Assembly: GCA_003154775.1 (NCBI GenBank)
Contig: PMES01000042.1
Span: forward strand, 1 to 58,103
Reading direction: 5' to 3'
Source: Acidobacteriota bacterium
GTDB taxonomy: Bacteria > Acidobacteriota > Terriglobia > Acidiferrales > UBA7541
DNA: 58,103 nucleotides
How positions within the stretch are numbered: the first letter of the stretch is position 1; the number at the start of each line of letters is the position of its first letter. Both the position numbers and the translations under genes were made by a program. A model generated the notes under the pieces. It was not told the origin of the DNA. It saw nothing but the letters and a program-made list of their open reading frames with translations, and ran no database searches. Below, one piece after another: positions 6,190 to 11,143 of this stretch.

Positions 6190-7173
6190 ATGATCATGGT
6201 GCGCAGCCCGCTCCGCATTTCGCTCGGCGGAGGCGGCACGGACTTGCCTTCCTATTATACGAACCACACGGGATTCGTGTTGTCTGCGGCGATCAAGCGC
6301 TACGTTTACATCACAATCAGCGAAGCCTTTTGGCCGCTGATCCGGCTGAAATACTCGAAGATGGAGGAAGTCGAGAAGGTTGACGATATCCAGCACCCCA
6401 TCGTCCGCGAGGCCATGAAACTCACGGGGGTGACGGGACCGTACCTCGACATCGTGAGCCTCTCGGACATACCGGCGGGGACCGGGCTGGGCTCTTCGGG
6501 GAGCTTTACGACGGCGCTGTTGCAGGCGCTGCATGCGCTGAGCCGGCGATTCGTTTCTCCGCAGGAGCTGGCGGAGCAGGCTTGCCATATCGAGATTGAC
6601 GTGTTGAAGGAACCCGTGGGGAAACAGGACCAGTACATTGCCGCATACGGCGGCATCACCTGTTTCGAGTTTCAGCGGGACGGCCACGTGAACGTGGAAG
6701 CCCTGAGCATTCCTCCAGAGGCCCTGGCCAATCTGGAGGACAATCTCCTGCTGTTCTTCACGGGGACTTCGCGGTCCGCTTCGGAGATTTTGCGGCACCA
6801 GGATCAGAGCAGCAAAGAAAATTCCGCCGAGATGCTCGCGAATTTGCATTTCACGAAGAAGCTCGGATTCGAGAGCCGCGACGCCCTGGTTTCCGGCGAC
6901 TTGCATAAGTTCGCGGACCTGATGGCCGTCCACTGGGAGCACAAGAAGCGGCGTTCTTCGGGAATGAGCAGCGGGCGCATTGATGAACTCTATGACTTGG
7001 CGTGCGCGAACGGAGCGCTGGGCGGGAAATTGGTGGGCGCCGGCGGCGGGGGCTTCCTGATGTTTTATACGGAAGAGAAGACCAGGCTGCGCCGGGCGAT
7101 GAGGGGCGCAGGGCTGCGCGAAGTGCGATTGCAGTTTGATTTTGCCGGCACCACCATCATGGCGCATTCCTAG
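6190..7173 (+). CDS. hddA: D-glycero-alpha-D-manno-heptose 7-phosphate kinase (GHMP kinase)
   Basis: Predicted to phosphorylate D-glycero-D-manno-heptose 7-phosphate at C1, giving the alpha 1,7-bisphosphate for GDP-heptose synthesis. The 327-residue protein begins with RSPLRISLGGGGTDLPSYY, typical of HddA-like GHMP kinases. It has the ATP-binding motif IPAGTGLGSSGSF at about residues 94-106 and the C-terminal GHMP motif GAGGGGFLMFY. The family also contains fucose kinase-type enzymes, but the neighbours (an HddC-like nucleotidyltransferase and a SIS-HAD fusion) favour a heptose substrate. It is the first gene of the operon; hddC follows after 9 bases. Confidence 0.87.
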   Translation: MIMVRSPLRISLGGGGTDLPSYYTNHTGFVLSAAIKRYVYITISEAFWPLIRLKYSKMEEVEKVDDIQHPIVREAMKLTGVTGPYLDIVSLSDIPAGTGLGSSGSFTTALLQALHALSRRFVSPQELAEQACHIEIDVLKEPVGKQDQYIAAYGGITCFEFQRDGHVNVEALSIPPEALANLEDNLLLFFTGTSRSASEILRHQDQSSKENSAEMLANLHFTKKLGFESRDALVSGDLHKFADLMAVHWEHKKRRSSGMSSGRIDELYDLACANGALGGKLVGAGGGGFLMFYTEEKTRLRRAMRGAGLREVRLQFDFAGTTIMAHS

Positions 7174-7182
7174 GGAGGATGG

Positions 7183-7905
7183 TTGTTACCAGTCGCCATA
7201 CTTGCCGGGGGCCTTGCGACGCGCCTGGGACCCGTCACGGAAAAGGTGCCCAAGTCGCTGCTGGAATTGAATGGGGAGCCGTTCATCTTCCACCAATTGC
7301 GGCTCTTGAAGGCGCATGGCGTTCAGCGCGTTGTGCTGTGCGTAGGGCATCTGGGAGAGATGATTCGGCAGGTTGTCCGCGAAGGGCAGGACTTCGGCGT
7401 GGAAGTTGACTACTCCTTCGACGGTACGGCACTATTGGGGACTGCGGGTGCGGTCAAGAATGCCCTCCCTAAACTTGGGAATTCCTTCCTTGTGCTGTAT
7501 GGCGACTCGTACTTGGTTTGTGATTATGCCGCCGTGGCCCGGGAATTTCAGCGGGCGGGGAAACTGGGCCTGATGACGGTGTTCAAGAACGCGGGGCAGT
7601 GGGACACCAGCAACGTGGAGTATCAGGCCGGCCGGATTCTGGCCTACAGCAAGAAAAACCGGACTCCGCGCATGCAGTACATTGACTACGGTCTGGGCGC
7701 TTTTTCCGCGCAAGCTTTTGCGAGAGTGCCCACGGGGCAGGCCTCCGACTTGGCGGAACTCTACGCCCGGATTCTGGAAGAAGGGCAACTGGGAGGAATG
7801 GAAATTCAACAACGATTTTATGAGATTGGCTCGCCCGCTGGACTCGAAGAGACAGCGCGCTTCCTGGCCACGCAGCAGGCGGCACAAGGGGTCGTGCGGA
7901 AATGA
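7183..7905 (+). CDS. hddC: D-glycero-alpha-D-manno-heptose 1-phosphate guanylyltransferase-like nucleotidyltransferase
   Basis: Sugar-1-phosphate nucleotidyltransferase of 240 residues, predicted to join heptose 1-phosphate to GMP, making GDP-heptose. The nucleotide-binding signature is at the N-terminus: AILAGGLATRLGPVTEKVPK, with the Gly-rich loop, the TRL and the PKSLLELNGEPFI lysine. A metal-binding Asp is seen in LVLYGDSYLV. The start is a TTG at 7183 placed 4 bases after GGGAGG; the ATG at 7179 is in another frame. The nucleotide (GTP) is inferred from the adjacent hddA; HddC-like and RmlA-like enzymes are hard to separate by eye. The last four bases overlap the next gene as ATGA. Confidence 0.82.
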   Translation: MLPVAILAGGLATRLGPVTEKVPKSLLELNGEPFIFHQLRLLKAHGVQRVVLCVGHLGEMIRQVVREGQDFGVEVDYSFDGTALLGTAGAVKNALPKLGNSFLVLYGDSYLVCDYAAVAREFQRAGKLGLMTVFKNAGQWDTSNVEYQAGRILAYSKKNRTPRMQYIDYGLGAFSAQAFARVPTGQASDLAELYARILEEGQLGGMEIQQRFYEIGSPAGLEETARFLATQQAAQGVVRK

Positions 7906-9068
7906 TCCACGAACCCACATTCGCGGAGAAGTTCCTGGCGGAAGCGGCGCAAATCCTCGCCGGCCTGGACGTATCCCGCATCGAAAAGGCGGCGCAGCTC
8001 CTGGCGAACGTGCGAGCCAATGAAGGGCGGGTGTTTATTCTCGGCGTCGGGGGGAGCGCGGCAAATGCCTCGCATGCGGTGAACGATTTTCGGAAGATTG
8101 CCGGAATCGAAGCGTATGCGCCAACCGACAACGTCTCCGAATTGACGGCGCGAACCAACGACGAGGGATGGGCGACCGTCTTTGAGGGCTGGCTGAAGAC
8201 GAGCAAATTGCAAGCGCGCGATGCGGTGCTGGTGTTTTCCGTGGGCGGCGGAGACCTGGAGCGCAACGTTAGCCCGAACCTGGTGGCTGCATTGCAACTT
8301 GCAAAATCCACGGGAGCGAGAATTCTCGGCATCGTCGGGCGAGACGGTGGGTACACGGCGAAGGTTGCCGACGTCTGCATCGTGATTCCGACGGTCAACC
8401 CGGCGCATGTGACGCCGCACACCGAAGCATTTCAGGCGGTGGTCTGGCATTTGCTGGTGACGCATCCCGCGGTGAAGATCGCCCAGACAAAATGGGAAGC
8501 AACCGCAAACGCGGGAAGGCTTTCGCGCGCCGTGTTTCTGGACCGGGACGGCGTGCTGAACCGCGCGGTGATACGTGACGGGAAGCCTTATCCGCCGGCA
8601 AGTGTCGCTGAGTTGGATATTGCCGCGGGAGCGGAGAACGCCCTCCGGGAATTGAAGGCGCAAGGATTCAAGCTGCTGGTGGTAACGAATCAGCCGGATC
8701 TCGCCAAGGGTCTGGCGACGCAAGAAGATGTGGACGCGATCAACCAGAAACTGGCCGCAGCGCTGCCTGTGGATGAGTTTTTTGTGTGCCCGCATGTGGA
8801 TGGCGACAATTGCGATTGCCGCAAGCCCAAAGCGGGGCTGCTCCTGGAGGGGGCCCGGAAGCACCATATCGATCTCTCCGCGAGTTTCATGATCGGAGAC
8901 CGCTGGCGCGATGTGGAAGCGGGACAGAACGCTGGGTGTCGCACGGTTTTGATCGATCAGGGATACCAGGAGAAGCACCCAGCACGCCCGCCGGACGCGA
9001 TTGTGCATTCGCTTCGGGAAGCGGCCGACTGGATTCTGCATGCACATTCCATTGGTGCGGCGCGATGA
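7902..9068 (+). CDS. SIS-domain/HAD phosphatase fusion (GmhA-like and GmhB-like)
   Basis: A 388-residue two-domain protein. Residues 1-200 form a SIS sugar-phosphate domain with the loop GVGGSAANASH; residues 208-388 form a GmhB-type HAD-IIIA phosphatase. The phosphatase has the nucleophile and acid-base pair D214 and D216 (FLDRDGVLN), and the GmhB zinc ligands C296, H298, C304 and C306 (CPH...CDCRKPK). It should therefore remove the C7 phosphate of heptose 1,7-bisphosphate. The SIS half would be the sedoheptulose 7-phosphate isomerase by context, but the residues expected at E. coli GmhA E65 and H180 appear as Asp and Phe or Gln. Its activity is thus uncertain. Both ends overlap their neighbours by ATGA. 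Confidence 0.85.
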   Translation: MIHEPTFAEKFLAEAAQILAGLDVSRIEKAAQLLANVRANEGRVFILGVGGSAANASHAVNDFRKIAGIEAYAPTDNVSELTARTNDEGWATVFEGWLKTSKLQARDAVLVFSVGGGDLERNVSPNLVAALQLAKSTGARILGIVGRDGGYTAKVADVCIVIPTVNPAHVTPHTEAFQAVVWHLLVTHPAVKIAQTKWEATANAGRLSRAVFLDRDGVLNRAVIRDGKPYPPASVAELDIAAGAENALRELKAQGFKLLVVTNQPDLAKGLATQEDVDAINQKLAAALPVDEFFVCPHVDGDNCDCRKPKAGLLLEGARKHHIDLSASFMIGDRWRDVEAGQNAGCRTVLIDQGYQEKHPARPPDAIVHSLREAADWILHAHSIGAAR

Positions 9069-9850
9069 AGTCACTTTCCCAGCTTGCGGTGAAGATCTAT
9101 GGGGATGGCGCCGACCTTGCCGGAATCCGCGAACTGAGCCGGCAGCCCTTCATCAAAGGATTTACGACGAATCCGACACTGATGAGGAAGGCTGGCGTGC
9201 CGGACTATGAACAGTTCGCGGCGCAGGTGCTCAAGCTTATTCCAGACCGGCCGGTTTCCTTCGAAGTGCTCGCCGACGACGCAGAGACAATGGAATCGCA
9301 GGCGCGATACATCGCGGCGTGGAGCGCCAACGTGTACGTAAAGATTCCGGTGACAAACACGCGCCGAGAGCCAATGTACCCGCTGATCCATCGCTTGAGC
9401 CAGGACGGAATTCAGATCAACGTGACCGCACTGCTGACGCTTGAACAGTTGCGGAAAGTCGCGAAAGCGTTGCGCGGCGGCGCACCTTCCAACGTATCCA
9501 TCTTTGCGGGAAGAATCGCGGATACGGGTCGCGATCCGATACCCGTCATGGCTGAAGCCGTGGCTATTCTGCGGGAGAATCCGCAATCCGAATTGATCTG
9601 GGCAAGTCCGCGCGAACTCCTGAACATCTATCATGCCGAGCAGTGCGGGTGCCACATCATCACCGTCACGAACGACGTCCTGCGGAAATTGCACCTGATC
9701 GGGAAAGATTTGAGTGACTATTCGCTGGAAACTGTGAAGATGTTTTATGACGACGGAGTTAAGTCGGGATACGTGCTGGAGCCGGCCAAGCTGGTGGCGG
9801 GGACGACAGGTCGTGCAAGCGTTGCTGCAAAAAAGCGCGTTGCTTCCTGA
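9065..9850 (+). CDS. Small transaldolase / fructose-6-phosphate aldolase-like protein
   Basis: Class I aldolase of the short transaldolase (TalC/FSA) family, 261 residues. The Schiff-base lysine is K93 in NVYVKIPVT, the substrate loop is FIKGFTTNPTLMRKAG, and a barrel strand NVTALLTLEQ and SIFAGRIADTG follow as in the family. The ATG at 9065 overlaps the stop of the SIS-HAD gene as ATGA, which fixes the start. A transaldolase makes sedoheptulose 7-phosphate, the starting sugar for heptose activation, so its place inside this operon suggests that it feeds the pathway. That role is inference; cleavage of another sugar phosphate cannot be excluded. Confidence 0.85.
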   Translation: MKSLSQLAVKIYGDGADLAGIRELSRQPFIKGFTTNPTLMRKAGVPDYEQFAAQVLKLIPDRPVSFEVLADDAETMESQARYIAAWSANVYVKIPVTNTRREPMYPLIHRLSQDGIQINVTALLTLEQLRKVAKALRGGAPSNVSIFAGRIADTGRDPIPVMAEAVAILRENPQSELIWASPRELLNIYHAEQCGCHIITVTNDVLRKLHLIGKDLSDYSLETVKMFYDDGVKSGYVLEPAKLVAGTTGRASVAAKKRVAS

Positions 9851-9904
9851 AGCCATGCGCGCCTCGAGTCCCAACGGGCCCCGGAACATCGCGGGGCGCA
9901 CCCC

Positions 9905-11143
9905 GTGCTGATTCTCTACCTCCTGCTCGGCGTAGCCCTAATCGGCACGCTGACCTCCGCAATCTTCCTGGGATTGGCCCTTGCTGGGGCCATCAAGTTT
10001 TATCGGGATGCGCGGCAGGCGATCGATGCCCTCTCCCGTGTGAAAGATTTTCCACCCGTTTCCGTGCTCAAGCCGGTGCACGGTCTTGAAGTCCGGCTGA
10101 AGGAGAAGCTGGAGGGCTTTTTCCGCCAGGATTATCCCGCCTATGAAATCCTGTTCGCGGCGGATGAAGAAAACGATTCCGCGCTTGATGTTGTCCGGGA
10201 AGTGAGCGCGCGGTACCCGCAAATTCCCTGCAAGATCCTCGTGAACGGGATTCCGCCTTGGCCCAACCCGCCCGCCTATTCCTTTTCGCGTATGACCGAG
10301 CTGGCGGAGCACGAAATCCTGGTGACCAGCGACAGCGACGTGGAAGTCGCCCCCAACTACCTGCGCGAAGTGGTCGCTCCACTCCTCGACCCAAAAGTTG
10401 GCATGGTTACGTGCGTATATCGGGGCAAGAACACCGCCGGATTCTGGTCGGGGCTGACGGCAATCGGCATGTCCGTGGAGATGACCGCGGGCGTGCTCGT
10501 GGCTAATCTGCTGGAAGGCATGAAGTTCGGATTGGGACCGACGATTGCCGTGAAGAAAGAGGCCCTGGCGCGCATTGGCGGCTACCAGGCACTGGGAGAT
10601 TACTTCGCCAACGACTTCATGATCGGCCACCTGATCGACGCAGCCGGCTATCACGTCGTGCTTTCACAATATGTCATCGAGCATGTGGTCAATCAGAAGA
10701 ATTTTCAAGTCATGTGGGACAATCAGTTCCGCTGGGCAAAATCCACGCGCTATTCGCGCCCGAAAGGGCATTTCGGCAGCGGCTTGATTTTCGCTTTGCC
10801 CTACGGACTTCTAGGGCTGGTCGCGGCGATAGCGCTTGGCAAGACGGGCCTGGGACTGGCGCTGCTTGGCGCCGCCCTTCTGAACCGCATCTTGGAGTCG
10901 TGGCTAGTGGGCTGGGGCGTGGTGCGCGATCCCGTGGCCCTGAAGGAGTTCTGGCTCTACCCCATTCGCGACTTTTTGGGTTTTATCGTTTGGGCCGTCA
11001 GTTATACGGGAGCACGAGCTGTCTGGCGAGACAGCCGCTACGAATTGCAAGGCGATAAAATCGTGCTTCGCAAAAATACCGGGACTTCGCCGGCAGCGGG
11101 GGCCACCGGAACGCCTCACTCGCACTCAAACTCACATCATTAA
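9905..11143 (+). CDS. Membrane glycosyltransferase of the ceramide glucosyltransferase type (GT21, HpnI-like)
   Basis: A 412-residue inner-membrane glycosyltransferase. There is an N-terminal membrane segment (about 2-28), a cytosolic GT-A domain with PVSVLKPVHGLE, the metal-binding TSDSDVEV, a FANDFMIGHLI acceptor motif and the processive-type NQFRWAKSTR, then two or three C-terminal membrane segments from about 300. These features fit GT21 enzymes such as ceramide glucosyltransferase and the hopanoid enzyme HpnI. The start is GTG at 9905. It lies 54 bases after the transaldolase gene in the same direction, so it may transfer heptose or another sugar to a lipid. The His/Ser-rich C-terminal tail (HSHSNSHH) is odd. 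Confidence 0.83.
   Translation: MLILYLLLGVALIGTLTSAIFLGLALAGAIKFYRDARQAIDALSRVKDFPPVSVLKPVHGLEVRLKEKLEGFFRQDYPAYEILFAADEENDSALDVVREVSARYPQIPCKILVNGIPPWPNPPAYSFSRMTELAEHEILVTSDSDVEVAPNYLREVVAPLLDPKVGMVTCVYRGKNTAGFWSGLTAIGMSVEMTAGVLVANLLEGMKFGLGPTIAVKKEALARIGGYQALGDYFANDFMIGHLIDAAGYHVVLSQYVIEHVVNQKNFQVMWDNQFRWAKSTRYSRPKGHFGSGLIFALPYGLLGLVAAIALGKTGLGLALLGAALLNRILESWLVGWGVVRDPVALKEFWLYPIRDFLGFIVWAVSYTGARAVWRDSRYELQGDKIVLRKNTGTSPAAGATGTPHSHSNSHH

Follow-up and report, generated by a model that had tools for sequence, protein, structure and literature searches.

We have analyzed a stretch of 58,103 nucleotides (the window from here on), contig PMES01000042.1 of the Acidobacteriota assembly GCA_003154775.1 (4.63 Mb in 150 contigs) of a soil bacterium, in which five open reading frames (ORFs) follow each other on the + strand between 6190 and 11143. 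They code for a kinase, a nucleotidyltransferase (NTase), a fusion of a SIS and a HAD domain, a transaldolase (TAL) and a GT21 glycosyltransferase. Comparison of sequences and gene neighborhoods supports that the first four genes (6190-9850) are a single unit, of which the transaldolase is an integral and conserved member. By analogy with the first five sugar steps of lincomycin biosynthesis, we consider it slightly better than an even chance that this unit is an operon for an activated octose, i.e., a rare C8 sugar. The set is found again in many microbes that are not related, and there it could readily pass for a heptose pathway.

The transaldolase and the genes around it

Genome contigs were scanned with an alignment of the transaldolase, and the best 80 of 552 confirmed matches are the loci compared here. 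They were picked by the transaldolase, with gene calls from tblastn; 17 have less than 3 kb of sequence upstream of it, and L065 and L066 look like one contig twice (equal lengths and equal matches). A SIS match was found in 71 loci, at most 2.5 kb from the transaldolase in 69, one of which (L103) has a weak match of 30% on the opposite strand. The order HddA-HddC-SIS-HAD-TAL on a single strand, intervening genes being allowed, appeared in 36 of the 80. This recurrence of the four leading genes (five domains) at loci fetched with the transaldolase alone shows that their order in the window is more than chance. The titles of the loci include Acidobacteria, Chloroflexi, Proteobacteria, Verrucomicrobia, Elusimicrobia, Omnitrophota, Patescibacteria and two Candidatus Methanoperedens, and no Streptomyces title is found among these best 80 of 552 matches.

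The window transaldolase scored 323 bits with TIGR02134, above the cut-off of 282, and its structure model had a pLDDT of 91. Residues Glu67, Lys93, Phe147, Arg150, Ser181 and Arg183 are invariant over an alignment of 26 sequences. At the catalytic positions Gln and Tyr mark the fructose-6-phosphate aldolases, and Glu and Phe mark transaldolase. Identity as a fructose-6-phosphate aldolase was rejected because the protein retains the catalytic Glu and Phe.

We have examined 297 Acidobacteriota genomes, drawn evenly from a larger group. The SIS-domain profile A2 gave 257-350 bits in 18 of them and no more than 95 bits elsewhere among the matches listed. TIGR02134 was above its cut-off in 17 of the genomes, and the 14 control genomes gave no score above it. 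All 18 SIS genomes carry a transaldolase, i.e., the same 17 plus G095, in which a diverged transaldolase adjoins the SIS gene; the distance between both genes was 2.5 kb or less in 15 of the 18. The profile of the kinase subfamily (A3) reached at least 411 bits in 12 genomes, every one with the SIS/transaldolase pair. HddA-like kinases at E<=1e-50 were present in 49 genomes, 33 of which have neither this SIS nor TIGR02134 above cut-off. HddA-like loci thus commonly do without this transaldolase, and the kinases of those 33 genomes presumably sit in ordinary heptose loci.

In a second phylum, sampled evenly as 380 genomes of a larger group around locus L073 (titled Chloroflexi bacterium), the SIS profile gave 281-345 bits in 15 genomes and at most 112 elsewhere among the matches listed. 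The transaldolase profile reached at least 271 bits in eight genomes, all among these 15, and in seven of them the two genes are no more than 2.3 kb apart. A diverged transaldolase (128-153 bits) adjoins the SIS gene in G326, G378 and G640, and in G434 the slot after HAD of a complete cassette is filled by another TAL_FSA protein (L200:4003-4719), a case of non-orthologous replacement. The proteins in this slot in G095, G326 and G434 have fsa_talC_mipB as their best NCBIfam model, below its cut-off, and have retained the catalytic Glu and Phe. That other TAL_FSA proteins with these residues occupy the place indicates that the transaldolase slot persists despite gene exchange. A set complete without a transaldolase, as in the GDP-heptose pathway, is not what we found: all 18 Acidobacteriota genomes with the SIS domain have a transaldolase too, and so do 12 of the 15 in the second phylum when the three diverged ones, the replacement in G434 and the one on another contig (G362) are counted.

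Longer versions of the cassette add genes for an epimerase, a UDPG/GDP-Man-type dehydrogenase (DH), an SDR and a Gfo/Idh/MocA protein (GFO). The order DH-SDR-GFO-HddA-HddC-SIS-HAD-TAL, again with intervening genes allowed, was present in 12 of the 80 loci, and the Rhizobium plasmids L036 and L037 carry this cassette. Another 19 loci (including L074:8850-14323) have a second type of module, in which SIS-HAD-TAL is followed by epimerases; 14 of the 19 also have an HldE-like protein. The one of L074 has its domains in swapped order (cytidylyltransferase first, PfkB last) and scores 148 bits with a cut-off of 521. Possibly this module is an ADP-activated version for the same sugar. A further 18 of the 80 loci comprise seven with less than 3 kb upstream, and the remainder differ in arrangement.

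Several single cases were observed along the way. The plasmid of Lawsonia intracellularis (L034), an intracellular bacterium of the animal gut, has all eight cassette genes split in two blocks, and there a gene for a lysylphosphatidylglycerol-synthase-like membrane protein adjoins the transaldolase. Two metagenome-assembled genomes titled Candidatus Methanoperedens (L102 and L120), which are archaea, have the eight-gene cassette, with dehydrogenases 82% and SDR proteins 90% identical to each other. Among Rhizobium plasmid records 58 match the kinase (most of the listed ones at about 42%, and frequently beside a HAD-IIIA gene), only three match the SIS domain and five the transaldolase; phage records gave three weak SIS matches. 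A third arrangement was seen in contigs G042:C4 and G286:C40 (L168 and L169), with the transaldolase near a kinase 39-40% identical and the SIS gene 9-11 kb away on the other strand. Loci L082, L115 and L117 are titled Akkermansia muciniphila, Bordetella parapertussis and Asaia bogorensis; their isolate codes look environmental and the names may be wrong.

Octose, heptose or another long-chain sugar

To the author of the original prediction no published pathway with this exact set was known. The lincosamide literature does describe one. LmbR joins ribose 5-phosphate and three carbons of fructose 6-phosphate or sedoheptulose 7-phosphate into an octulose, and LmbN isomerises octulose 8-phosphate (PMC5854111, PMC4351081, PMC12945683, PMC7014725). 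LmbP is the predicted kinase (PMC4351081), LmbK is the phosphatase and LmbO the guanylyltransferase, the outcome being GDP-octose (PMC4351081, PMC12945683, PMC7014725). To these are added the dehydrogenase LmbL, the epimerase LmbM and the oxidoreductase LmbZ, with lmbZ, lmbP and lmbO adjacent (PMC12945683, PMC7014725). The five activities so described (transaldolase, SIS-type isomerase, kinase, HAD-type phosphatase and nucleotidyltransferase) are all represented in the window operon. In the literature searched (titles and starts of abstracts of the papers listed, with most subscription journals outside the coverage) we found no transaldolase tied to a heptose or octose operon other than those of lincosamides, and the available part of PMC5702140 mentions neither heptose nor octose.

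Read along these lines, the transaldolase would transfer a three-carbon unit from fructose 6-phosphate (or sedoheptulose 7-phosphate) onto ribose 5-phosphate to give octulose 8-phosphate, which the SIS domain would convert to octose 8-phosphate. The GHMP kinase would then phosphorylate C1, the HAD domain would take off the C8 phosphate and the nucleotidyltransferase would form an NDP-octose, probably GDP-octose, that may end up in an envelope glycan.

The SIS domain departs from the GmhA of the heptose pathways. It scored 52 bits with the GmhA model TIGR00441, below the cut-off of 209, while Foldseek matched it to the GmhA fold with TM values of 0.76-0.77. Alignments of its subfamily have an SVGGG loop, D62, E175 and H183 invariant. 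Compared with GmhA of B. pseudomallei and of its own genome, the window domain has Asp61 changed to Asn, Glu68 to Asp and Gln175 to Glu (numbering taken from PDB mutant titles and the alignment), five residues fewer after the helix concerned, six more in the phosphate loop and four more ahead of the last helix. PDB titles name the GmhA mutants D61A, H64Q and Q175E, so the alterations fall at positions that have been studied, and these positions are catalytic ones in GmhA. As this SIS domain is nearly always paired with the transaldolase, most simply it uses the special product of that enzyme.

The alternative closest to the original prediction, which had seen here a complete activated-heptose operon, is that the transaldolase supplies the isomerase with sedoheptulose 7-phosphate and that kinase, HAD and nucleotidyltransferase then make GDP-D-glycero-alpha-D-manno-heptose. 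A GDP-heptose route with a transaldolase added would indeed draw on these same five families, and a transaldolase yields sedoheptulose 7-phosphate from fructose 6-phosphate and erythrose 4-phosphate; the PDB relatives of the window proteins include HddA, GmhA and GmhB (those of the kinase are the putative sugar kinase 4usm, 3k85 and 4n3o), the SIS domain has the GmhA fold, and the second module with its HldE-like protein parallels the existence of two heptose routes. However, the genome already has a separate set of heptose-type genes. It has two separate GmhA genes, on contigs C7 (202 bits) and C8 (197 bits), both just below the cut-off, and an HldE adenylyltransferase domain above its cut-off. 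Contig C8 also has, among apparent glycan genes about 17 kb from GmhA, a second GHMP kinase, HAD and nucleotidyltransferase, and the window kinase, nucleotidyltransferase, SIS and HAD are 29-38% identical to the second copies of the genome. Contig C150 has apparent genes for transketolase, classical transaldolase and glucose-6-phosphate isomerase, the TAL_FSA genes of the whole genome being only that beside the transketolase and that of the window. Besides, the HddA-like kinases of the 33 genomes mentioned above do without such a transaldolase, and the window SIS, HAD and nucleotidyltransferase fit heptose models worse than the C8 copies. The HAD domain scored 97 and 122 bits with GmhB models whose cut-offs are 150 and 178, compared with 174 (cut-off 178) for the C8 copy, and the nucleotidyltransferase 66 bits with HddC, compared with 131 (cut-off 300); its best NCBIfam model was MurU (120, cut-off 250). 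Taken together, these comparisons make a heptose pathway doubtful for the window operon, and we regard GDP-heptose with its own transaldolase as rather unlikely. As it was worded, the claim of a complete heptose operon is an interpretation that we did not find supported.

A different acceptor, such as arabinose 5-phosphate or a hexose 6-phosphate, would give another octulose or a nonulose phosphate for the SIS domain to isomerise. The SIS-transaldolase pairing and the SIS loops speak for such a sugar as they do for octose, and transaldolases and related enzymes take various substrates, as stated in PMC5854111. Yet the literature searched gave no described pathway with such an acceptor and ribose 5-phosphate is the simplest precedent; we regard this option as quite improbable, more so than the heptose one.

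Several observations weigh against the octose reading that we favor. Its likeness to LmbR/N/P/K/O is one of described activity, and the acceptor (C5 rather than C4), the length of the product, the nucleotide and the fate in an envelope glycan would all follow by analogy. The window transaldolase belongs to a broad family for which the NCBI name is simply transaldolase. Among the 18 Acidobacteriota the SIS and transaldolase genes are 9-11 kb apart in two (G042 and G286) and on separate contigs in one (G026); in the second phylum they are on different contigs in G362, and three of the 15 SIS genomes (G514, G450 and G402) showed no transaldolase, either across the genome at E<=1e-30 or in the stretches inspected, so that a strict rule of pairing does not hold. 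The clade of the window itself has no adjacent dehydrogenase, SDR or Gfo genes, and the lmb cluster has an aminotransferase, LmbS, with no equivalent among the cassette neighbors named, though no search was aimed at it. Finally, the window kinase scored 164 bits with the NCBIfam model HddA (cut-off 600), more than the 135 of its C8 paralogue. As the C8 kinase falls even further below 600, this cut-off does not discriminate, and the argument that all the heptose homologues of the window are below NCBIfam cut-offs is weakened, because the C8 control set fails too.

Activated octoses, or a derivative made from them by the dehydrogenase, Gfo/Idh/MocA protein and epimerase, could be a frequent component of the surface glycans of many bacterial phyla and of Candidatus Methanoperedens archaea, shared among them by horizontal transfer, with the lincosamide sugar as one late use and the members elsewhere annotated with general or heptose-type names; we put this wider proposal a little short of an even chance. 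If true, a pathway known to us only from lincosamide antibiotics would be widespread in environmental bacteria and some archaea, and some "heptose" readings would be wrong in carbon number. It would also tell glycan chemists which organisms to examine for octoses and allow the origin of the lincomycin sugar genes to be tested.

The locus and the GT21 gene

The features of the locus are collected in the table. The layout of five co-directional genes was confirmed, with a gap of 9 bases between kinase and nucleotidyltransferase, two ATGA overlaps (nucleotidyltransferase/SIS-HAD and SIS-HAD/transaldolase) and 54 bases ahead of the GT21 gene. On either side lies a gene of the opposite strand, one for an aldo/keto reductase-like protein and one for a nucleoside diphosphate kinase, so the block stands alone. 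The first 20 kb of the window are largely collinear with Candidatus Acidiferrum typicum UBA7541 (L055), at 93-96% DNA identity.

Table. Genes and domains of the five-gene block (activities assigned by analogy are putative)
Feature	Position	Strand	Details
GHMP-family sugar-1-kinase (putative HddA-like / LmbP-like activity)	6190..7173	+	327 aa; Pfam GHMP N + C
Sugar-1-phosphate nucleotidyltransferase (putative HddC-like / LmbO-like activity)	7183..7905	+	240 aa, TTG start; Pfam NTP_transferase
SIS-HAD fusion protein	7902..9068	+	388 aa; Pfam SIS_2 + HAD
SIS domain, putative aldose-ketose isomerase of a distinct subfamily (putative LmbN-like activity)	7902..8495	+	SIS_2
HAD-IIIA phosphatase domain (putative GmhB-like / LmbK-like activity)	8496..9068	+	DxD + CxH..CxC motifs seen in translation
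Short transaldolase (putative LmbR-like activity)	9065..9850	+	261 aa; Pfam TAL_FSA; TIGR02134
GT21 membrane glycosyltransferase, HpnI-type second copy	9905..11143	+	412 aa, GTG start; Pfam Glyco_transf_21

The GT21 protein scored 314.7 bits with the HpnI model TIGR03472, just above the cut-off of 310, and a squalene-hopene cyclase (780 bits) is found in the genome; with this score and a gene of hopanoid synthesis present, the protein would qualify as an HpnI. A better copy, of 355.7 bits, lies on another contig (G000:C54), and the window copy is 39% identical to it. HpnI was above cut-off in 57 of the 297 Acidobacteriota genomes, in 8 of 18 with the operon and in 49 of 279 without it, a co-occurrence above expectation (Fisher p 0.010, relatedness ignored).

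Only five of the 80 loci have a GT21 gene in the stretches examined (L055, L056, L061, L110 and L119), that of L061 being 35% identical and on the other strand. In a tree of 29 hand-chosen sequences the window copy groups with those of L055, L056, L110 and L119 and with an unlinked copy of G084 (support 0.999), and the sister sequences (support 0.69) come from G073 and G210, both genomes without the operon. The position also varies: in L110:4883-7081 and L119:4819-7080 the GT21 gene and an epimerase are ahead of the kinase on the same strand, while in the window GT21 comes after the transaldolase. A general membership of GT21 in the unit was rejected, given the five loci of 80 and the 49 genomes of 279 with HpnI above cut-off and no operon; the unlinked orthologue and the sisters in operon-free genomes likewise place it outside the general module.

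Within this clade GT21 might still work with the operon and attach the activated sugar, whichever it is, to a membrane lipid, for example a hopanoid. Its gene follows the transaldolase closely on the same strand, the orthologues of L055, L056, L110 and L119 lie no more than 5 kb from the transaldolase and cluster in one clade with the window copy and the unlinked one of G084, an epimerase adjoins it in L056, L110 and L119, and the cyclase and the co-occurrence mentioned above point in the same direction. Against such a role, GT21 was not found in the examined stretches of 75 of the 80 loci, the relatives in G084, G073 and G210 are unlinked or in operon-free genomes, and HpnI works with UDP-sugars. 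We regard the proposal as quite improbable. Of the idea that precursor supply, activation and transfer are packaged in one unit, the part on the transaldolase has stood, as a member of the four-gene unit conserved in relatives; the GT21 gene, with some linkage in its own clade, is not conserved in that way.

Comparison with known systems

HpnI, the bacteriohopanetetrol glucosamine glycosyltransferase of family GT21, resembles the last gene of the block in that the score is above cut-off and the genome has a hopene cyclase; the window gene differs in being a second, weaker copy. As a TIGR02134 transaldolase, the window member stands out by its place in a sugar-activation operon, with a classical transaldolase elsewhere in the genome.

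The pathway to GDP-D-glycero-alpha-D-manno-heptose (GmhA, HddA, GmhB and HddC) shares with the window the families of kinase, phosphatase, nucleotidyltransferase and isomerase as well as the GmhA fold. It has no transaldolase, however, and the window SIS belongs to a subfamily of its own, altered in catalytic residues and loops, in a genome that has another such set. The second module type resembles the ADP-heptose pathway (GmhA, HldE, GmhB and HldD) in that SIS-HAD-TAL is joined there to an HldE-like protein and epimerases; the difference is in the swapped domains of the L074 protein and in the transaldolase, which is alongside again.

The GDP-octose pathway of lincosamides (LmbR/N/P/K/O of Streptomyces lincolnensis, with Ccb homologues) has the same five activities, the likeness being drawn from the activities as described in the papers cited above. 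The protein families of the Lmb enzymes are assumed here, and we take LmbZ to be a Gfo/Idh/MocA protein and LmbL a UDPG_MGDP_dh. Genes for a dehydrogenase, an oxidoreductase and an epimerase are likewise part of the long cassette, in which GFO, HddA and HddC are adjacent. What sets the module described here apart is that it is found in environmental microbes of many phyla and that in the window the SIS domain is fused to HAD.

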